Source: Podaxis mareebaensis
Taxonomy: Eukaryota > Basidiomycota > Agaricomycetes > Agaricales > Agaricaceae
DNA: 36,949 nucleotides
NCBI GenBank assembly: GCA_018524725.1
Contig: JAEUWP010000164.1
Span: 1 to 36,949 of the forward strand
Direction: 5' to 3'
The position numbers were made by a program, and so were the translations under genes. Below, one piece after another: positions 4,968 through 36,949 of this stretch. Each line of letters begins with the position of its first letter. The first letter of the stretch is position 1. The notes beneath the pieces were generated by a model. That model ran no database searches. It worked only from the letters and a program-made list of their open reading frames with translations, and was not told where the DNA came from.

Positions 4968-7900
4968 TGTCCCGTGTTTCCCTTCACCACTCCACCCCAT
5001 CACCGATCGCTATACACATGCTTAACCCCTTCCAAAGTTCCAAACTAATCTAAACCATAAAAGAACATCACCAACCATGCCACCCCATGTCAATGATACC
5101 ACAACCCAATGGTATTCCCGGCCTCCGCTATATTGTATCCCCCTTACCCTAGTCGCGCTGCCGGAAGTCTCCTTGTATCGATTTAGAAACCGTACATCAG
5201 TACTCAAATATCAAACTATCACCCGGCTACGCGTTCGTATATACTTATGTGGGACGTTCGAGAGACCTTTTCTTTCCTATACCTAATTTTGGGTATCAAT
5301 TATCCGCTTTCGGAACCATCTGGGCTCAGGGTCCTTCATCCCTGAAAGTGCATGAACAAAGTCTCTCCATGCTTTCGCAACCGAATAATCAGCACACGAT
5401 AAACTCAAAACTGAATACCAATTACCCGATGTGGATTCGGCTACACCTCTATTCCATATCATTCATATCATCCATTCAAAACAAGATGACCACACCACAC
5501 CGCTGGTCACCGGTGCACCACCCATGCCAACCCCACACGTCCCATAATTATCCCGACCATCAATGATCGTCTCATACCATCGCAACCCCAACCCCGATCC
5601 TGCACCATCACGCTCCTCTGCTCCTCTTCTCCGTGGACTTTGCTCAAATGCGAGGAGCTCTGCCTTGGCGAATTTGTTATTCATTATCCTGATGCAAGCG
5701 TCGTGTGGTCGGTTTTTTCTTTTTGGATGCGGGTTTTTTACGCTGTGGAATCATAGTAAGGCTTTCTATGGAGAAGGATAAGGTGGGTACGGGTGTGAAA
5801 TTGTGTTGACGTTATGAATTTGTTCCGGAACGTTGAGTGTCATTCGTTTATTCAATGAAGCATGGACGAGTCGGTAAGGAGTAACCGAGGGCATGTGTGG
5901 GGTGTGAAGTGTCTCGTCGTTATTCAAATGTCAGTTCTGGATAACGAGAACTGGTGTATTTACGGGTTGTATTCTCTATACTCGTCAGGGGGGGACGTGA
6001 CATTGGCGAAAATAATAACGATGATGGACGTGCTTTGGTTATGGTTCGGCATGAGCACTAGGTCAAGTGACCGGAACGAAAGTCTGGCGCGCGTGTATCG
6101 CACTATGATATTTATGTATCCGCGTATGCTGTTCTCATGGACGTTAAGGTCCGGCATGGTCATGACTTGGTGCATGCAATGATCATGAATAGTAGCGGAC
6201 TAACACAGCGGACTCTGCCCGCTCCACTCGTTGTACGAGCTTTCTCTCACGGCAGAGGACTTTCGCGCCCAAAGGATCCAAGATCTGGTTCTCGGAAGCC
6301 TCGATGCATGATGGAGTTGGGTGTTCAAGGGCTCAAATTAGATATCTATACTTGTCTGATCCCCAATAAGTTGACTCGCGGTTACGAACGAGGACAGAAG
6401 CCAGAATGTTGTCGTCGCCTTCTACGTGTTTCATTGTTCAAGCATCCATATCAGCAACTCACCTACGAATAAAACGAGCAGCCAAAGCCTCACCAATGAC
6501 CAGAATACAGAGTACCTAACGCTGCATCATACCCAAACCAAATTAGATAGCATGATAAATCGAATGAAGGATCCTGGTGGCACGAGACAAGCAGCTCCGA
6601 ATTATCGAAAGGGCTTCCCACACGACACACAGTGGCGTCTCAACACGCCATTGAGTCTGTCAGTCATACGATCGGTTTATGTTTGGGCGCATGTAGGGCA
6701 ACCGTCCTTTCTCTGAACCCGTCCCTGAGGTCTCGGAAGCCGATTGGACATCGAACTGTACTAGTGCTAAGTGTGCCACCGCGCCAAGGACAACCTTGAG
6801 AAAACAACAAACCTGGAGGTCGTACTTGGGTATCTTTAGCCTGAGGATGAATGCGATCCATAGTTGTTCCAGATAGACTACATAGTTTCCAGATTTCGGA
6901 TGGTTCCTGTCCTTTGATCTTGTTCGTGGCGGCGGAGAAGCCTAGGGAGAACCCAGTCGTTTGGTTCGGTGCCGGATATACAGGATGCGAGGAGCTGAGG
7001 TGGTGACTCTCAACAGGATGAGGTACCGCGCATTTACTCCTCCGTATGCTGACAGTGGCGGAGTGGAGCTCTTGAGCGTCTTTGCAGATTGCAATTACGG
7101 CGGAGTACGTAGTGGTGGTAATAGAGCGAGTCCGGAGCGATAGGCATCCGACTCAGCTTCAGGATATCTTCGTCGATGTCCCAAAGTCATCGAGGCTTTC
7201 GTCGCTGCATCTGTCCGAAATAATTAAAAAGGCTCACTGGCAAGCAGGCTTGATTGTGGCACAGTAGTCGTTTCGTAGCGATAGACGAAACGGGGTCCAA
7301 TTTAGCGGTGAAAGGACAGCTCGGTATACCCATTGTTTCCAGGGAGGACCATACCAGCTGAGGACACTTTTCCGACCATGGGAGACTAGGTTGAGGTTGC
7401 TGAAACCGGCCGGGGGGACACAAGTAGTGTTTGTCTCGAGGTAACCAAATTCATGAAGGAGTTGATTTCCGGATCAGTATCACGTGGAGATCAGGACGCC
7501 GACAAAGATAATAATCGTCGCCGCCACCACCCATTCGACTCCTGCAGGAAATCGACAATTTAAACCCGGCAGACTGGAAAAACCCTGACTGCGTACCTGG
7601 GCGACCAGGCGGCCGAGAACTCGGGCCTAGGTGACCCCCTGTGCTGGTGTCAGCTGAAGTGCGAACAAAATGCAGGCACATTCTATAAAATTAATTACCA
7701 TGGGCGTTGCTTGATGGTAGCTTTGCCCTATGTCATTGTGGCTGCGGTCTCCAAGTTCCCGAGATAACCCGAGAGTCGGGTAGCCTCAAACTGGTCGATG
7801 ACTATACATTGCTACGTAGGCACCAGGTCGTTGCCAGCGACCTCAGACTCAAGGATCGGAGCCAGGTCGAGGAGAGTGTCAAAGGAAATCAGGTTCGCCT

Positions 7901-28263: not shown

Positions 28264-30317
28264 ATGCACACAAGTGACTCAACCGCGACCGTGGCTGTGC
28301 CTTCAAACTCAGATTATGTTCTCGAGTTGCCGCGGAGTGTACACTTGTTGTATGGTGCGGTGAGCATTGGGGGAAGTCTTGCATATGTGTAAGTTTAGCC
28401 GATGTACTCTTTCCTTTCTTGCAGTCTCTTCCTGACCTTTCAACCTTGTTTCAAAATTCAACGGTGATTTGCCTGCGGTAGACTATTCGGAGTATCATGC
28501 AACCAAATGGTGTGGTACTTTCGATCCTACCCCCGAGATCCTCTTTTATTCAAGACCTTCGTATGTTATCCTTGCGCCCACATCTTCACATGCTGACATT
28601 CTATAGATAGGCATCATATTGGCTGTCAGTAACGAGGCTTCTGCCTCCGTGGTCCAATTTCATTCACTTCCGACTCTCCAGGTTAACATAATGAATTTTT
28701 TCTGGATAATCGGAAACTTGTATTATATATTTATCCTACGAGGGATCGGGACGGATCTTCAGCGGTTTGTAGTTTGTGACCATTGGTAAGTTCTTCCTTC
28801 CCAGTGGGAATATTTTTCCCTTGTGGCTGAACGCTTCGAAGGACATTGAATGTGTGTACGATTCGCTCAGTTCTATGATCCTCAAGCTAATGATATACCT
28901 GAGGCGGTGCTTGTCCTTACGGTAAGTGATCCTCGACACCAGTTTCTCTCGGAATAGTCTGAGCCTCCTTTGACTCCAGGAGTTGTGTTGCTGCTTTGTT
29001 GAGCTGTGAGACACAGAAATGAATTCTGATTGGTCTACTAACGCCTTGGGACAGATTCTTCATTTTACGGATGTGGCGATGTACGGCCCTCTATTATCCC
29101 CGGTCAATATCACGTTTGACAGTGACGCCTAGTTGCAGAGAAGAAACATTTAACTATCCTCGCGGTACGTTCTCGTATGGGGGGGGGGAACGATGCCCTG
29201 GGACTGATTTATTCTAGTTTATCCCGTATATTGCCTCAGCAGGTATTGCTTGAATGACCCCAGTCCTTCCGTCTAGTCTAACATCCCCTCGGGTGCTAGT
29301 TTTTAATCTGAGTAAGCTAGTGCTCCTGGGACCTCTGATGCCTTTCTAACTTCTGTTCCAACTCAGTATACCTTCATGGAATGTCAGTCGCACTTTCAGG
29401 CACTTGATATGCTGGTGGGAGACCCTGCTCATGCTTGCGGATGCAGGTTTAAGATCCCATGCTATCCTGAGATGATAGTCAATCGGGTACGTCCTTCGTG
29501 CCTACTACTACGCTTGGGGTTGACGCCATCTGATAAATCAATAGATCTGGCTGATTTTGGCGTATAGCTTCAAAATCCTCTCAGATGGCGTCATTGCTGG
29601 AACAATGATCTGGTTGTTATGTAAAAGGAGTCGAGGGGTCCGTAGGCAGTACGTGCTTCCCGTCCAATCCAACTCCGTATCTGATCTACTTTGTCCTCTC
29701 GCCTCCTGAAGAGGAGGAACTATACGCGTTGTTCGAATTCTAATCTACTGGGCCGTGAGCACAGGCCTAGTTTTATGGTAGTATTTCTGGGATCTATCTC
29801 ACCCCTCGGCGGCGCTCACACTCAGTTGTGATAGGATTTCGACGATAGTCTACTTATCGACAGTACGTATTAAACTGAATGTCCCTTCTGTTTCGCCTTC
29901 ATTGACCTATCTCCTAGTACACTTTATTGTCGGACACCTATGTGTGTATAGCCGTCTACGTGACACGCGGACAGAGTAAGTATGGTCAAGGTATCTCCAT
30001 CTTTGGAGGTCTGAGTCGCCTTTGTTTCAGTTTACGTGGTTGCCATGCTAGCCGTGTGAGTCTGCCATCTGAGCCACAGTTTCGTGTACTTCATTCATTT
30101 TCCCTATCACAGAACCAATGATCGAAAGCGATGCCAGGCGGTTATGCAAAGACCAGAGAGTATTTCGCTAAGGACAACGACGATTCGGAGGCAAAGAACA
30201 GCGGCGAGCGCTTCTACGACGGATTTCTGGAAAAGTATGACTGACGGGGTGTATGAGTCTGACATTATTGATACACAATCTCCGGTTCCTCATCGTTCTT
30301 CATCGGGGCTTGAATGA
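28264..30317 (+). CDS. DUF6534-type seven-transmembrane protein
   Basis: Eighteen exons: 28264-28388, 28482-28560, 28607-28624, 28682-28768, 28871-28921, 28980-29005, 29055-29080, 29133-29164, 29218-29242, 29300-29311, 29367-29382, 29447-29486, 29545-29648, 29712-29777, 29835-29862, 29918-29975, 30031-30055, 30113-30317; 1023 nt (340 aa). The pattern matches the basidiomycete family: GxxxxGxLAYVLFGVSCNQ then YFRSYPRDPLLFK; LFFILRMWR at the end of the third helix; SFKILSDGVIAGTMIWLL followed by a KRSRG loop; and IYVVAMLAVTNDRKR at the end of the last helix, before a Ser/Thr-rich tail. These are plasma-membrane proteins of unknown function. The exon 4/5 donor (GTAGTT) is the least certain join; 28785 is an alternative end but breaks the frame. 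Exon 10 is 12 nt, and two donors are GTCAGT. Confidence 0.82.
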
Positions 30318-30533: not shown

Positions 30534-33168
30534 ATGGCGTCTGATGCTCTACGCTCTCAAGTTGCAGCCAAATGGCAGGACGCGTTTGGACGACTGAACA
30601 GAAATGAGCAGGGCATCGCCGGCCTTATGGCCTTCAGCAAGGCATGGAACATTGCCCTCCGTGTCCTACACCCCAGGGAACTCGGCGAGGGGAGAGACAT
30701 CACGGACATGGACACCATCCGCACCGCGTTTACCATCATCAATGCTGGGCGACGGCTGCCCTTTCTGCTCGAAACGTTCTTGGAGGACCTCAAACAACAA
30801 TATTACCTCGTGGAGAGGGATGTGGTGACGTACATGACGCGATTTGACGAGACGGAGGACCCGGACATCGTGCGAGAGCTCGTGCTACGCCTCGTCGCCT
30901 GGTTCAAACACTGGGCTCCGATGTCAGAGTGCGTATATTCTTCCGTATGGTGTATATATACACTAACCGCCACAGACTAGGGACGACGATATACTCAGCG
31001 TACACGCTCTCCTTCCAGACCCATCTCTTCTCCATAGTCCCGCCTTCGTTTGCACGCGGTTTCAAAGCCCTTGTTGCATCTACTCTCTCCACCTCCTCTA
31101 CGGCCATAACACCCGGCAGTTCCTCAGAGACAGACGACCCAAATGGCCCAATATGGCAAGCCTTTGAAACCCTCGGCCTTATCGATCGCTATGAAACTAT
31201 AATCGCCACCGTGGGCTACGAGTTCATCGAGCAACACGTCCTCGAGACCTGCACAGGTGAATGGAGCCGTCCTATGCTAGGCGAGCTGCGCGACTGGATG
31301 TCAGACAAAGTTGTTCCTTGGATGTTGCTTATCTATGCGCGTGGCGCTGCAAACGGCAAGTGACGCTCCCATTGGTTTAACTATCCAAAGCTGATAGTTC
31401 AATAGCCGAGGAAGCCAGAGGAATGCTGCAAGGTGTCGGTTCTCGTTTCGACTTCCATATTAACAAAACTCTCTGCGACCTCCGCACGCGCGAAATCTTC
31501 GACATCATCATCGACTTTCCCGACTCCACTGGTGCATTATACGATCTCCGTGACTGCCTCCAGCGCGTCGATCAACGCCCCGCGCTGGTAAAAGCTCTCC
31601 GTCAAGCGTGCGCGTCCCTACTTCATTCTCATTCGGACAGCACTAATCAACCATAATATAGCAACCGCAAACGCCTCTTGCACCCAGGCGCCGATACCAA
31701 ACTCATACTCTCTCAATATGTAGCGACGATCAAATGTCTGCGACTCATAGACCCTCCAGGCGTGCTCCTCTTCAAAGTCGCGGATCCCATTCGTCGATAC
31801 CTTCGTGACAGACCTGACACGATCCGTTGCATCGTCGCAAACCTCGTTGGTGACGACTCTGACTCACCTGATTCTCTCTTGGACGACACTCTTGATCCTG
31901 CGACTGGTGGTGCAGGTACTAGTGCAGGTGGAAGCGGTGGTGGAGCAGGCAGCCAATTGTTAGTTAATCCACCAACGTTGGTCGATGACTATTCCGACCC
32001 GAACTGGGATCCAGAACCAATCGACGCAGGCCCAGAATTCCGCGCCAACAAACCGGGTGACGTCCTCTCCACCCTCGTATCGATCTATGACTCGCAAGAC
32101 CTCTTCGTCAAAGAACTCCAAGTTCTCCTCGCCCAGCGCCTCCTCTCCATCCCCATCTCCACCGATCCAACGTCTTCCAATGAGACTGTCGAGAGGATCG
32201 AAAAAGAGCGCCGCAACATCGAAATCCTCAAGCTAAGATTCGGCGAGAGCGCTTTAGGTGTCTGTGAAGTCATGCTTCGAGACATGACAGACTCGCGACG
32301 GATCGATACCCACGTACAAAGTATCCAACAAAGCGTAGTCCATCCAACAATAATTTCACACCACTTCTGGCCTACACTCGAGTCCTCCTCCCTTACTATG
32401 CCCGGCCAATTCGCTTCCTTGCAGCAAACCTACTCGAACCACTTCAGCCAATTCAAACCAGACAAGAAACTCAAATTTTTGCCGCATTTGGGGACGATTA
32501 CGCTTGAACTTGAGTTGAAGGATCGGAAGATGGAGGTGACGGTGCCCCCGTTGGAGGCGGCGTTTATAGAGTTGTTTGCAGAGAGGGAGGTGTGGAGGTT
32601 GGAGGAACTGATGGAAGGCGTTGGAGGGGTGGATAAGGGGTCGGCATTGAAGGCGTTGTTGACGTGGATTGATTATGGGGTTGTGGAGGAATGCGAGGGT
32701 GAGGAGGGGGTGTTTAGGCTGATTGAGGTCGTCAAAGAGAAGAGCGGGGATGGTGGGACGCTGAGACAAGGTACGTTGTCTTGCATGACATTCATATTGG
32801 TGTTGGGTTAATGGTTGCTGTTTGTTTCTTTGTAGCTGTCGCGGCGCAGGTACAAGCGCAGGAGGCGGTTGTACAACCTGTTACTAGTGTGCAACAACAA
32901 CAGGCGGAGCAAATGCGGGTCTATTGGAAGGTGTGCCCCTCTGGCGTCTTTCTTTTGTACACACATGCTAAATCCCACGTGGTTCATATAGTTCATTGAA
33001 GGAATGCTCACGAATTTGGGTGGTCTCCCGGTTGACAGGATACAGTCCATGCTTCGGTTCGCACCGGGGTATGACCAGACTGTTGAACAGCTTGCACTGT
33101 TCCTTGAAGCGGCGAGAAGGGAAGGGGTCGTCGTCTGTCGTGAGGGGGTGTGGAAGTTGAATAAGTAA
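30534..33168 (+). CDS. APC2: Anaphase-promoting complex subunit 2 (cullin-like)
   Basis: Exons 30534-30928, 30976-31355, 31406-31607, 31662-32770, 32836-32930 and 32992-33168 sum to 2358 nt (785 aa). Apc2 is the cullin scaffold that holds the RING subunit Apc11 in the APC/C ubiquitin ligase, which targets securin and cyclin B. Visible: helical cullin repeats in the first half; the cullin-homology part LKLRFGESALGVCEVMLRDM...HFWPTL...QFKPDKKLKFLPHLG, with the following winged-helix WRLEELMEGVG; and the C-terminal APC2 domain (QMRVYWKFIEGMLTNLGGLPVDRIQ...REGVWKLNK). A Gly/Ala-rich loop (about 31905-31965) is a species-specific insertion. The start at 30534 is the first ATG in frame. The intron at 31356-31405 begins GCAAGT, a GC-AG intron; a GT choice would break the frame. 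Confidence 0.95.
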
Positions 33169-33538
33169 GCTGGAATCTGTAAAGCTGGACATTGGCTGGA
33201 CATTGGCTTTCTTTTTTTGTTTTACACCTTCAATTGAATTTAACTGAATCATGTCAGGCGTTGTGACGATTGAGAGTTGGGCCATGTTACTTGGGATTGC
33301 TTGTGCTGGAGCATGGTGTTTTTGTCTGGGAGAACCTTTTGAGTCTTCGTTGCTGGAAACGATTTGATTGTTATGTATTCCAAGTTAAGGAGTTCGTAAG
33401 CAGCACATGTTTTTCACTGGATTTTGCTTGGTTTCCTACTACAGTCAGTTTATAGCTGGTCTTTTGCTGAACAGTGGAGCTTGACTGCAATGTGCCCTCT
33501 AATAGAGTAGCAGGCTGTGTTACTTTCAAGTGCCCCAG
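33169..33538. other. APC2 3' flank
   Basis: No gene. CpG is frequent at first and stops after about 33395, so the CpG-poor block may start here, before the APC2 relic. Confidence 0.4.
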
Positions 33539-33724
33539 GTTGTTGCCAAGTGGCACAACATGATAGGACAGTTGAACAGAAACGAGCAGGGACCATTAGC
33601 ATTATAATCCCCAACTAGGCCTGGAATATCACTCTGGGGTGCCCTCCATCCAGAGCAATTGGGTGGCCAGGAGCATTGTGGATATGGACACTACTGATAT
33701 GCCCAATGATTACCATGTTGTATG
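33539..33724 (+). pseudogene. Decayed partial copy of APC2 exon 1
   Basis: It aligns by eye over its whole length to 30561-30744 of the intact gene. It reads VVAKW...GQLNRNEQG and later LHPEQLG where APC2 has VAAKW...GRLNRNEQG and LHPRELG, and both share gatatggacac/gacatggacac near the end. It has in-frame stops and a frameshift. Several CpGs of the gene (for example gacgcg) appear as CA or TG. It is in the same orientation, about 370 bp after the APC2 stop, so it is a tandem partial duplicate or the remnant of a paralogue. Amino-acid differences show it is old. Confidence 0.75.
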
Positions 33725-35102
33725 TTGGTGTCAGTCATACTTTGACAAATTCTAATTCTAATACTTTCCAAGGTTTTCCTTTCTGTGCTCCAACCTCAAA
33801 GAATTTGCTCCTTCTTGAGCCTTAGGCCCTTGCATTTCTCACATGAGACACTGCCATAGCAAAACATGAAGCAACAAAATCCTATATATCACAGGTAGAG
33901 ATCAGGCAAGGAGGCTATGCATAGACAGAATGGGAATATAGTTGCATCTGTCAACTGAGAACTAAAGGAGTAGGGTGGTGAAAGCCATGTGCACAGGTAG
34001 GAAAGGTGTAGAAAAGCTCCAAGAAACAACAGAGACATTACAACAAGCATTTTCTTGGGGCTGAAGTTGAAACACAAGAGCTTGGAGGGAGATGATGAGA
34101 AATAGGAAGTGGGGAGATTAGATGAAGTGAAGTGAAGTACAAGCTCAAAATTTGCACCTACAGTGCCTATGAGCTGTATGAAGTTAATCAACAGGTCAAA
34201 ATGGCTGGAACACAAGGACAATGGGCCAAGGACAATGAGCCAAGGGGATTAATGGGAATTAGACTGAGTGAGGTGAAAACATTAAATTTGTACCTATATT
34301 CATAGAAGTTGAGACTGTGGTGATAAGGAATCAAATAGTAGGATGCAGAGCAGAGACATGTGAAACTGAGGAAATGGAGAGAGACAGAGTCTTCATTGGA
34401 GAGGGGAGTGGTTGAAGGCTTGTCAGGGGTGGGTCCAAAAATGGGTTGTGGTGAGTGATAGATGTGCATGGGGTATGTGCATCTGGGTCTTTATGAATGG
34501 GTGGGTGGATTGGCATTGGGAAGAGACAACATAGTGTGAGATAGGCAATAGGTGGGTGTTACACTGCCAGCCTGTGCCCAATCTCCACACTGGATGACAA
34601 CAGTTGCAGGATGAGAGTCTTTGGGTATACACATGCACTCTGGCACCACCTTCATGCCATGCAGACAACAGAAGGTCTTAGACTGCTCTGAGAGCAATGG
34701 CTTCTTAACTCTCTGAAACCCCCTTGGCCTTGTGTATGGTTGGATTCCACTGACAAGACCAAAACTCTTTCCACTCCTTGATTAATTGGTCCCACATTGT
34801 CTTATGTTCCATGGCCTGGTTTGGGCCAGACATCTTTGCTCTTGTATGAACTTGTGAGTCATGTGCAGGGCTGTTAATCCTCCCTTGTGAACTGGTTGTG
34901 GTCACACTCCTGCTAGATTGATTGTTGCTTGATTGTGATCCAAACAGCATTCCATAGCAGCATTTTCACCACTCTGCTGCAGGCTCTCAGTGTTGCTACT
35001 TTCCTCCTTGATATCAGCATCTCTCTCCTTCTCTTGTTCACAAAGATTGACCATTTGCTCAATTTTTCCTGGCTGCTTAAAAATATCCCTGCTCCATCTT
35101 CT
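33725..35102. other. CpG-free sequence, no recognisable gene
   Basis: Minus-strand ORFs (for example 34705-34950 and 34491-34697) are short and low in complexity. It may contain further decayed exons, but I cannot name any family. It carries purine-rich and GGTGG-like simple stretches around 34350-34560. Confidence 0.4.
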
Positions 35103-36803
35103 CTAGAGGAAGAAGATAACAGGGAGAACAAATATGGCAACTGCTCCCACAATGAGGAAGACATGTGGATCTACCATACACATCATTAAGAAAGCAATGA
35201 TGAATGTTATCATTCTGCAGAACAGCCCCAAGTTAAAATCACATTTCTGAGTCATGTGGATCAAATTCAACTTATCCCCACATGAGCAGGGTAAAGGGTA
35301 AGCTGTATGCTGTTGCTGACATTTCTAGGCTTTGAGACTTGAATACATGCCTGCCCAGAGGTTGAAACTGGATTACATCCAGTATAGATTCCCATGAGAA
35401 AAATAAACAGCTTACAATGGCTCATACACTGTCCTGTAGTCAAAGTCAGTTCATCTTAATTGACCACAAGCCAATGATGATGCTAGCTAGACTTGCAAGG
35501 ACTGACACATAGCTGACAACTTGTGCTGGATAGAAGTTAACAATGCTTGGAATTATGAGGAATGCTACATTTGCATTCAGGACTACAGTAGCCTAGATCA
35601 ATGCTGAGCATTCCTTGCTCTAGGCAGGGAAGAGGAACTTATGTATGGAGTGAACATCTCCCATTGCTTACTAAGTTTTTCAATTGTTTCTTGCCACATC
35701 AAGTCATGTATGACCCATTTACCCACATCCTCTCCAAGTGTACCAGCTGTCATAGAGGAGCTCCAAGTAGTACCAGTGAGATTATTGTGGATGCCAGGTT
35801 CACCATAGAAGTGGATAAATTGTTCACAGGCTGACAGAAGCAATGTAAGCAATGAAAAGATGAATAGAACAGTGGAGACTTGATCACCATGGACAGACAT
35901 GAGCCTACAAATCAGAGAGGCAGAACTCATAGATAAGGTGCCTGGATCACCTTGTTCTAGTTCAGCCAATTGTTCCACTTACACAAGACATTGTGCATAC
36001 CCTTCAGACTATCTACCCAGTTGAGAATCTTGTTGGAGTCCTCCTGGGAGTATGGAGCTATTGAAGAAGTCATTGAATCTGGACCCTGAGTGGTGGATCA
36101 GATCATGGTGAGTGTTGTCTCAAGGGGAAAGAGCTGACCACTAATATAGAATAGAAGAGTGTCATGCAATTCAGTTATGAGTTTCAGGTTGACAGTGAAT
36201 ACCATAGGAAATGTTTGACAGTGGATCTCACAATATATTAAAGTGACTTCATATCTTCCAAAGACAGACTGTACCAGTAATGTACCTCAATCTCATGCTC
36301 TGATGGATTGAGAAATGGGATGAGGAAGTGATATCACTCACTTACTGAGACACAGCAATCTATGTCCATCTTCTGGCCTCCAGCAATCCAGAGTTAATGC
36401 TAGATAATTTTGTAACCAAAAGATTAAGCATTCCTGGCAGTTGATGAAATAATAGCCACACACATAGCTGCTGTGTTTGCTGGCCACAAGGCTTAAATCT
36501 AGTACAAGGTCATGATGTCTGAGTATGTTGTGTACCTCCACACATTGTAGGAAATTTTCAATCTTGGAAAGATGCCTGAGTATTTCATTGTGTATTGTCT
36601 CATTATAGAGATATACTTGTGTCATAACATGCTATTATGAGTTGGAGTGGATCAATATCTAGTAATTGAACACTATCAATATGATAAATGCCCACCTTTT
36701 CTTCATGATAAAAATAACACTGGCCTTGGGGGTATACACTAAATTTCCAACCTGGAGGGTCCTGAGGGCTGAATTGAGCTGTTACAGCAGTGTGGTAGGG
36801 CAT
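35103..36803 (-). pseudogene. Decayed gene of the basidiomycete WW-like/C-terminal membrane protein family
   Basis: The first exon (36803-36696) encodes a WW-like start, DPPGWKFSVYPQGQCYFYHEEK. A clean 64-nt intron (36632-36695) follows, then TIHNEILRHLSKIENFL, LVLDLSL, VCGYYF and IFWLQNY. Later pieces keep the family order: HEIEVHYWY, DSMTSSIAPYSQEDSNKIL, FIHFYGEPG, WVIHDLMWQETIEKLSKQWEMFTPY, VVLNANVAFL and YSLPFTLLMWG, ending in hydrophobic helices before TAG at 35103. Between these lie stops (after HEIEVHYWY..., after FYISGQ..., and before YSLPF). Two introns with good acceptors begin ATAAGT. The family is a multi-copy one in Agaricomycetes of unknown function; this recognition is from memory of the pattern. 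Confidence 0.7.
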
Positions 36804-36949
36804 GAAATACAGGCTCTGTTATAGTGAGGCCGCTTCAGTCCGTAAAGAGGCCCGATACGTATCCGCAGATCATATCAAAGGAGACTTCTCGTGTACTAAC
36901 AGATAGATTACCTTTAGGCACTGACAGAGTCAACGCGTCAAGATAACTA

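Follow-up and report, generated by a model that had tools for sequence, protein, structure and literature searches.

The right-hand end of the window, by which we mean the whole 36,949-base stretch of Podaxis mareebaensis DNA that was analysed, holds an APC2 gene, two degraded pieces that resemble it, a relic of a WW-domain gene and the first part of a young LTR (Table 1). The APC2 gene was recognised from the open reading frame at 31657-32808, whose PDB matches are human APC2 chains (best E 2.5e-55) and which matches the Pfam families TPR_ANAPC2 and Cullin; its first exon (30534-30926), taken alone, gave no match in a Pfam search. Both downstream pieces aligned with the APC2 region far better than shuffled sequence did: the relic of the upstream sequence had a local score of 28.5 (maximum of 17 in 100 two-base-block shuffles), and the relic of the gene start a score of 43.5 (shuffle maximum of 18, n=50). 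APC2 is the local source of this left-hand relic, and the two pieces together resemble a truncated, partly deleted tandem duplicate of the APC2 region.

Table 1. Features at the right-hand end of the window and on contig C45.
Feature	Position	Strand	Remarks
APC2 (anaphase-promoting complex subunit 2) gene	30534..33168	+	intact-looking, normal CpG; gene ends judged by eye from sequence
Left ramp, partial CpG depletion	33140..33583	.	between APC2 3' end and block; 5 CpGs wholly within 444 bases vs 19.2 expected
Relic of APC2 upstream sequence	33347..33412	+	copy of 29591-29658, 72% identity
Relic of APC2 start	33536..33728	+	copy of 30558-30748, 63% identity
CpG-free block	33584..36816	.	3,233 bases; 0 CpG vs 146.5 expected from composition
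Block part without relative	33729..34601	.	from own-genome DNA search and local alignment scores
WW-domain gene relic	34602..36816	-	WW exon to 3' end, introns retained
Target-site duplication GGCTC	36812..36816	.	5 bp; second copy at C45:78-82
Young LTR, first 133 bases	36817..36949	.	opens TGTTAT...; contig ends within LTR
Block remainder beyond LTR	C45:83-1049		967 CpG-free bases; 0 CpG vs 45.4 expected

A preliminary description of this DNA had reported that CG is absent from 33585-36828, where about 150 would be expected, and that it returns just past that point. A recount gave zero, the expectation from composition is close to the earlier estimate, and the first CpG on the right lies at 36831, the last on the left being at 33583. 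The window contains 1,947 CpGs, and its next longest CpG-free runs are of 188 and 184 bases. Within the block the other two dinucleotides that the C-to-T change of CpG would yield are raised over composition, with 310 TpG (206.4 expected) and 279 CpA (187.7 expected), and TpA is not in excess (observed/expected, o/e, 0.68). The edges had been described as sharp, which holds for the right one alone. The left edge is a gradual ramp, with CpGs starting at 33259, 33267, 33348, 33360, 33395 and 33583; the right edge is the insertion of an LTR element at 36817. We had considered the right edge as the boundary of a silenced domain, and rejected this given the transposon insertion there.

The larger part of the block is a relic of a WW-domain gene whose parent, intact and with normal CpG, lies on contig C325. 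The relic aligned with C325:4985-7260 at 68.5% identity over 2,148 columns, exons and introns alike, and an origin as a retrocopy was rejected because the alignment includes introns. None of the parent's 113 CpGs is kept: 36 have become CA, 30 TG and 7 TA, the remainder being other changes or gaps. The relic is non-functional, as shown by its 49 alignment gaps, 33 of which have lengths not divisible by three, and by a divergence of 0.270 at first and 0.244 at second codon positions against 0.318 in non-coding columns. Change was more frequent at CpG cytosines (0.455) than in non-CpG contexts (0.20-0.27), and the high level of the latter is expected from the relic's age. The claim that both recognisable pieces of the block are remnants of duplicated genes was therefore borne out by the APC2 and WW homologies. 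Between them lies a part for which a search of the organism's own genome with 33180-34610 returned the self-match alone, and for which the best local scores against the window and C325:1-10000 were inside or barely over the shuffle range. An inverted 14-base match (30232-30245/33730-33743) was taken as chance.

The element at the right edge has the properties of an LTR retrotransposon: TG...CA termini, a short target-site duplication, dispersed copies and paired repeats. The last 77 bases of its LTR (...ATAACA) are the start of contig C45, where, past the LTR end and with a matching 5-bp duplication, the WW relic picks up again. In this continuation 12 parental CpGs have become 7 CA and 5 TG, and the CpG-free block was about 4.2 kb long before the LTR split it. 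A genome search with the LTR gave 82 candidates, 40 of which were scored, self included; the others were 90-97% identical and start at window bases 36814-36819. Six of the seven other copies fetched have different flanks, L064 and L066 having nearly the same one, and same-strand pairs of LTR copies lie 8.7-8.9 kb apart on six contigs. Identity of the first 133 bases to other copies reaches 97-98%, and 8 CpGs are retained in them. Since this young LTR has kept its CpGs while its flanks are CpG-free on both sides, the stripping predates the insertion. Separately, C45:347-949 was seen to resemble another CpG-free stretch, on C340.

We then compared the block with other repeats of the genome. Retrotransposon copies at 30 loci form a continuous series of CpG o/e, from 0.06 to 1.27. 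In the lowest, L032, 9 of 171 CpGs are kept relative to L013, the other 162 all being TG or CA; the 2,974 columns compared contain 14 transversions. Between L020 and L011, 142 of 206 CpGs have become TG or CA, and 5 transversions were counted over 3,458 columns. Across 15 retrotransposon pairs at 90-94% identity, the rate of decay at CpG exceeded that at other cytosines by a factor of 6 to 72, with a median of 17. Ratios reached at least 50 in 2 of these 15 pairs; the three pairs with the youngest partners gave 72, 53 and 44, and a ratio of 3-4 was obtained for five further pairs at 67-72% identity. These measurements are likely to be underestimates, since both branches contribute non-CpG changes and the low values occur where the partner is itself decayed (o/e 0.63-0.81). 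Change at CpG in the transposon pairs far exceeds that at CC and CT. For CA/TG to TA, the seven pairs highest of 20 by a crude ratio measure were counted: there were 5-9 such changes per pair in six, and in the seventh this change lay outside the top four outcomes, against 81-162 CpG losses. The in-frame stops in 150 scored RVT_1 matches are 169 TGA, the product of CGA, against 5 TAG and 2 TAA (TAG and TAA counted by eye). CpG thus turns into TpG and CpA in similar numbers with few changes at CpA, CpC or CpT, which is the signature of basidiomycete CpG-type decay.

The depletion had been held to be stronger than ordinary transposon ageing, which was not supported as a distinguishing mark of the block. 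Of ten hand-picked interior 5-kb stretches from large contigs, nine had a CpG o/e of 0.83-1.00; the tenth, L047, is a retrotransposon relic with an o/e of 0.01 and a CpG-free run of at least ~3,580 bases, so that it reaches the same state as the block, as does L032. Other old retrotransposon stretches examined are less depleted (0.20-0.50). In this small sample CpG loss was confined to repeats and duplicates, with genes spared, and CpG-free single-copy regions, which if numerous would have spoken against the original interpretation, were not seen.

A search of the genome for PF00145 gave five matches in four genes, which were classed by their domains and PDB matches. The gene on C109 is of the DNMT1-RFD type, with BAH at 30.2 bits (30.8 with its neighbours, the cut-off being 30.8) and PF12047 at 28.5 bits (cut-off 22) in addition to PF00145. 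The gene on C384 was classed, without a tree, as DNMT1-like, its BAH match being weak and below the cut-off and one exon matching DNMT1 in the PDB (E 2.9e-9). That on C147 is DNMT5-like, with its best PDB match (7r76, E 4.7e-124) labelled Rad8, which we take to be DNMT5, and that on C150 is DNMT2-like. These matches indicate that DNMT1-RFD and DNMT5-type genes are present. Neither RID nor DIM-2 was identified among the five matches, which for RID is a weak test. Excerpts from PMC2432034 report RID-like proteins in Coprinopsis cinerea, and PMC4352252 and PMC7862722 describe basidiomycetes as without RID or seldom with it.

Taken together, these data make it likely that the block is dead duplicated DNA, long a target of CpG cytosine methylation, in which CpG changed to TpG and CpA until none was left. 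A piece of the APC2 neighbourhood would have been duplicated beside APC2, with the truncated, intron-bearing WW copy adjoining it; the homologies are observed, and the order of these events is our reconstruction. The copies would then have lost function, as seen in the WW relic, and the DNMT1-RFD and DNMT5-type enzymes whose genes are present may have methylated their CpGs, as in the transposons of other basidiomycetes. Deamination of 5-methylcytosine would strip CpGs far faster than other cytosines change; the difference in rate was measured on the transposon pairs, and the high CpG mutability of this genome's repeats is probably due to DNA methylation. CpGs re-created by back mutation would also keep being removed, so that near-zero CpG is the end point. 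Finally, the young CpG-bearing LTR retrotransposon entered at 36816/36817 and split the block, which accounts for the apparent sharpness of the right edge. In favour of methylation-linked decay, the functional relatives, APC2 and the WW gene, keep normal CpG, and excerpts from PMC4352252, PMC4457147, PMC7862722 and PMC13297926 offer published parallels. The earlier suggestion of heavy methylation, or of a premeiotic C-to-T process acting on duplicates, is thereby upheld as to the duplicated DNA, the change of CpG to TpG and CpA on both strands and the presence of methyltransferase genes of the kinds responsible for CpG methylation in Basidiomycota, and not as to a loss beyond ordinary ageing or the left edge.

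Several results count against methylation-linked decay, the ratios of 3-4 at 67-72% identity among them. A steady-state model with a ratio of 50 and a T>C rate half that of C>T predicts 2.9 CpGs in 3.2 kb (chance of zero 0.05), and with a ratio of 15 it predicts 9.8 (chance of zero 5e-5), worse with faster T>C; zero is thus comfortable only at ratios of about 50 or more, where few of the measured pairs lie. Most old retrotransposon stretches are less depleted than the block, and, with no detectable relative for 33729-34601, duplication is demonstrated for other parts of the block only. The steady-state result would favour an active, RIP-like premeiotic process that recognises duplicates and mutates CpG in bursts, in place of slow deamination of maintained methylation, because the completeness of the loss exceeds the prediction from most measured ratios. 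That gene duplicates are hit, not transposons alone, and that CpGs disappear quickly compared with the pace of transversions (as between L020 and L011) would fit it as well. We nevertheless consider such a process unlikely: RID was not identified among the PF00145 matches (a weak test), CpA to TpA is rare, and CpG loss among the retrotransposons is graded, with no all-or-none split. A single early burst was rejected, since about 65 back-mutated CpGs are predicted (589 TpG+CpA x 0.11, the rate of transitions at A or T in second codon positions of the WW part) and none is seen; a late burst would still be compatible. The further proposal that an active, methylation-coupled mutator drives gene duplicates, even the short tandem duplicate from APC2, an essential cell-cycle gene, to zero CpG and outpaces passive deamination seems to us doubtful; if true, it would give basidiomycetes an equivalent of RIP that relies on enzymes of the DNMT1/DNMT5 type.

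Methylation spilling over from the right-edge retrotransposon, which does adjoin the block, could in principle have produced the CpG-free state, but the LTR is young and keeps its CpGs while both flanks are fully stripped, making this very improbable. In a variant, older and now invisible repeats could be the source, in keeping with the likeness of C45:347-949 to the stretch on C340. The block's position at a contig end might suggest chance, an assembly artefact or foreign DNA. We regard these as negligible in view of the number of CpGs expected from composition, the homology to two host genes with a CpG to TpG/CpA spectrum, and the consistent continuation on C45 with its target-site duplication.

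Repeat methylation in Coprinus cinereus is said to have been described by Freedman and Pukkila in 1993, and RIP-like mutation with a CpG bias in basidiomycete transposons was reportedly described by Horns in 2012. MIP (methylation induced premeiotically) of Ascobolus, defined by methylation without mutation and timed before meiosis, resembles our case in that duplicated sequence is targeted and cytosine methylation is the presumed mark. Neurospora RIP likewise changes C to T on both strands of duplicated DNA. It acts mainly on CpA and depends on RID, according to excerpts from PMC4352252, whereas here CpG is the target, CpA to TpA change is slight and RID was not identified among the four PF00145 genes, a weak test; there is no Neurospora-type CpA preference with a TpA product. 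CpG-biased, RIP-like mutation of transposons is reported for Basidiomycota in parts of PMC4352252, PMC4457147 (Ganoderma sinense) and PMC4014442 (Rhizoctonia solani AG8), and it shares with our case the change of CpG to TpG and CpA on both strands, the targeting of repeats and the presence of a DNMT1/Masc2-type gene. In Rhizoctonia solani genes are affected too (excerpt of PMC4014442), and in Ganoderma sinense CpA is a second target (excerpt of PMC4457147), unlike here, where its change to TpA is rare. Our case differs from the basidiomycete ones in that a low-copy pair of gene relics was hit, not one CpG is left across 4.2 kb and the block can be read together with a later transposon insertion. 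The CpG depletion of vertebrates by 5-methylcytosine deamination has the same presumed chemistry and signature; it is about five-fold in human (excerpt of PMC13297926) and complete in the block. Methylation-linked CpG decay is a known basidiomycete process, and on the best reading the block shows its end point.

The locus is mainly a clean worked example, and the ratios measured here sharpen the question of active versus passive CpG loss without settling it. The order of events can be read out, from duplication through decay to transposon insertion. CpG-specific decay, familiar from transposons, runs to completion in this mushroom in gene copies that are not transposons, and such decay limits the survival of gene duplicates.

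The preliminary description had reported 3.2 kb without CpG, with sharp edges, and had taken the recognisable pieces inside for remnants of duplicated genes. A direct count bore out the missing CpG: none occurs between those at 33583 and 36831 of the window, which is the whole of one contig (C297) in an assembly of 36.95 Mb and 429 contigs, while composition predicts 146.5 in the block proper (33584-36816), excluding chance as the origin. TpG and CpA were about 1.5-fold up in the block and TpA was not. In the remainder of the window the observed/expected ratio (o/e) of CpG was mostly 0.8-1.2, and the second-longest CpG-free run was 188 bases. Few CpGs were seen within the first 366 bases, and 1-324, at the left contig end, holds a tandem repeat with a 148-base unit, in about two copies, that reads HGADVNIKG-like by eye and is presumably ankyrin-like.

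The origin of the recognisable pieces from duplicated genes was also confirmed. The relic at 34602-36816 (reverse strand) aligned end to end, introns and exons alike, with C325:4985-7260 on another contig (68.5% identity over 2,148 columns), where 12 exons together give an 826-residue open frame. The Pfam WW match of this gene was sub-threshold (E 0.0031), "WW domain-containing" being the name of several homologues; among 19 proteins listed, the nearest were from Macrolepiota fuliginosa (two best at 60% and 69%), then Leucocoprinus (52%), which suggests a host in the Agaricales, close to Agaricaceae. With parental CpG sites left out, the divergence of the relic was 0.270, 0.244 and 0.319 for the three codon positions in order and 0.318 for non-coding columns, and 33 of its 49 gaps (introns and exons pooled) were not multiples of three, which comes near to what a copy dead for a long time shows. 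The C325 gene has 113 CpGs where the two align, and the relic keeps none of them: 36 had become CA, 30 TG and 7 TA, the remainder being gaps or other changes. The other pieces derive from the start and upstream region of the adjoining APC2 gene, named from its PDB and Pfam matches (see table); both functional relatives have normal CpG levels. For 33729-34601, no relative was found by DNA search of the same genome or by local alignment to the window and C325:1-10000. Short tandem repeats were observed at 34213-34245 (14-base unit), inside this stretch, and at 33184-33208 (11-base unit), just past APC2.

Relics derived from APC2 and its upstream region, around the left edge of the block
Feature	Position in window	Copy of
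APC2-start relic	33536-33728	30558-30748, start of adjoining APC2
APC2-upstream relic	33347-33412	29591-29658, region upstream of APC2

The claim of sharp edges held on the right, where the apparent edge was made by a later transposon, and failed on the left, where CpG declines along a ramp: 444 bases hold 5 CpGs (19.2 expected), and the preceding 440 bases hold 22 (27.4 expected). Positions 36817-36949 open an element that has at least 40 matches including itself (40 scored of 82 candidates), the others being 90-97% identical. Seven fetched copies shared their first bases, TGTTATAGTGAGG, and mostly differed in their flanks, those of two (L064 and L066) being nearly identical. Because same-strand copies occur in pairs 8.7-8.9 kb apart on six contigs (C49, C256, C263, C108, C161 and C7), these elements were taken for retrotransposon LTRs. 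The next portion of the WW relic (parent 7252-7470) sits at the start of contig C45, which begins with 77 bases recurring with the same LTR family, followed by GGCTC (as at window 36812-36816) and then the relic. There, 12 parental CpGs have become 7 CA and 5 TG, and C45:83-1049 contains no CpG (45.4 expected), CpGs resuming at 1050, 1192, 1207 and onward. The two contig ends look like neighbours split by one LTR-element insertion, with GGCTC as target site duplication. Since the relic is CpG-free on both sides of the insertion, the block measured about 4.2 kb before it; and since the LTR start still holds 8 CpGs in 133 bases, CpG stripping predates the insertion.

Ten interior 5-kb stretches were hand-picked on large contigs away from known reverse transcriptase (RVT_1) matches. 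In nine of them the o/e was 0.83-1.00 and the longest run free of CpG measured 84-153 bases. The tenth (L047, C375:100001-105000) had an o/e of 0.01 and went without CpG for at least about 3,580 bases; it encodes RVT_1 and has at least 44 genome matches including itself (30 of 412 candidates scored). L047 belongs to a retrotransposon family with RVT_1 and a weak endonuclease match, its copies elsewhere being 65-83% identical and some lying as adjacent inverted pairs (e.g. on C115, C26 and C258). Across the 30 top-scoring RVT_1 loci (from 150 scored among 501 candidates, and thus biased to young copies) o/e spanned 0.06 to 1.27; seven stretches picked around RVT_1 matches with 3-4 TGA stops gave 0.20-0.50, with runs of at most 1,417 bases. 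TGA is the product of CGA, and in-frame stops in the 150 scored matches comprised 169 TGA (recount) against 5 TAG and 2 TAA (by eye). The terminal 1.3 kb of another contig (L073, C340:278815-280113) is CpG-free too and partly like C45:347-949; it is probably another decayed dispersed repeat. The block is the extreme of the range seen in repeats, not beyond it.

An early one-off burst of CpG removal is disfavoured. Given 589 TpG and CpA in the block and an A/T-site transition rate of 0.11 at codon position 2 (36/327), about 65 CpGs should have re-formed by now; none is present, so removal went on or the burst was late. The gradation among transposon copies speaks for decay that continues. Per-cytosine CpG loss was divided by C>T at CC/CT in all 20 pairs that one of the 30 RVT_1 loci formed with a partner richer in CpG. 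Fifteen pairs at 90-94% identity gave ratios of 6, 10, 12, 12, 13, 13, 15, 17, 19, 32, 35, 37, 44, 53 and 72, and five at 67-72% identity gave 3-4; the values 72, 53 and 44 belong to the three pairs with the youngest partners (o/e 0.93-0.95), and low ratios occur where the partner itself has decayed. In a rough steady-state calculation in which T>C runs half as fast as C>T, a ratio of 50-100 leaves 2.9-1.5 CpGs expected in 3,233 bases and a probability of zero of 0.05-0.23, falling to 5e-5 at a ratio of 15 and 4e-7 at 10; the window had been chosen for its striking look. Should T>C equal C>T in speed, a ratio near 100 or higher is needed. Passive decay would therefore not empty the block at the median measured ratio, and nearly would at that of the youngest pairs; passive and active loss both remain candidates.

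We infer that methylation lies behind the CpG loss. The PF00145 profile gave five matches in four genes. The gene on C109 has RFD and BAH matches as well as a DNMT1 match, and that on C150 matches DNMT2. The C147 gene matches PDB 7r76 (E 4.7e-124), named Rad8 there, which we take to be DNMT5. In the C384 gene a weak BAH match fell below cut-off and the catalytic exon was nearest DNMT1 in PDB (E 2.9e-9), a PDB search with another piece finding no match; this gene could be kin to RID-like enzymes. The Basidiomycota set is described as DNMT1-RFD plus DNMT5 (PMC7862722, PMC13297926), and RID-like proteins are mentioned for Coprinopsis cinerea (PMC2432034).

Parallels appear in published work. For basidiomycete transposons, a CpG-only signature is tied to a Masc2-like DNMT1, with deamination after MIP-like methylation as the proposed route (PMC4352252); in Ganoderma sinense, bisulfite-detected CpG methylation and CpG-type mutation share repeat regions or lie in adjacent ones (PMC4457147); and in Rhizoctonia solani AG8 hypermutation from CpG to TpG reaches genes too (PMC4014442). 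Our literature search for fully CpG-free or pseudogene cases brought up none in the accessible text, which does not show that none has been published. The process at the block is of the same kind as this published basidiomycete CpG decay. The composition is true and striking, and its best explanation is a known process that has reached its end point on dead duplicated DNA.
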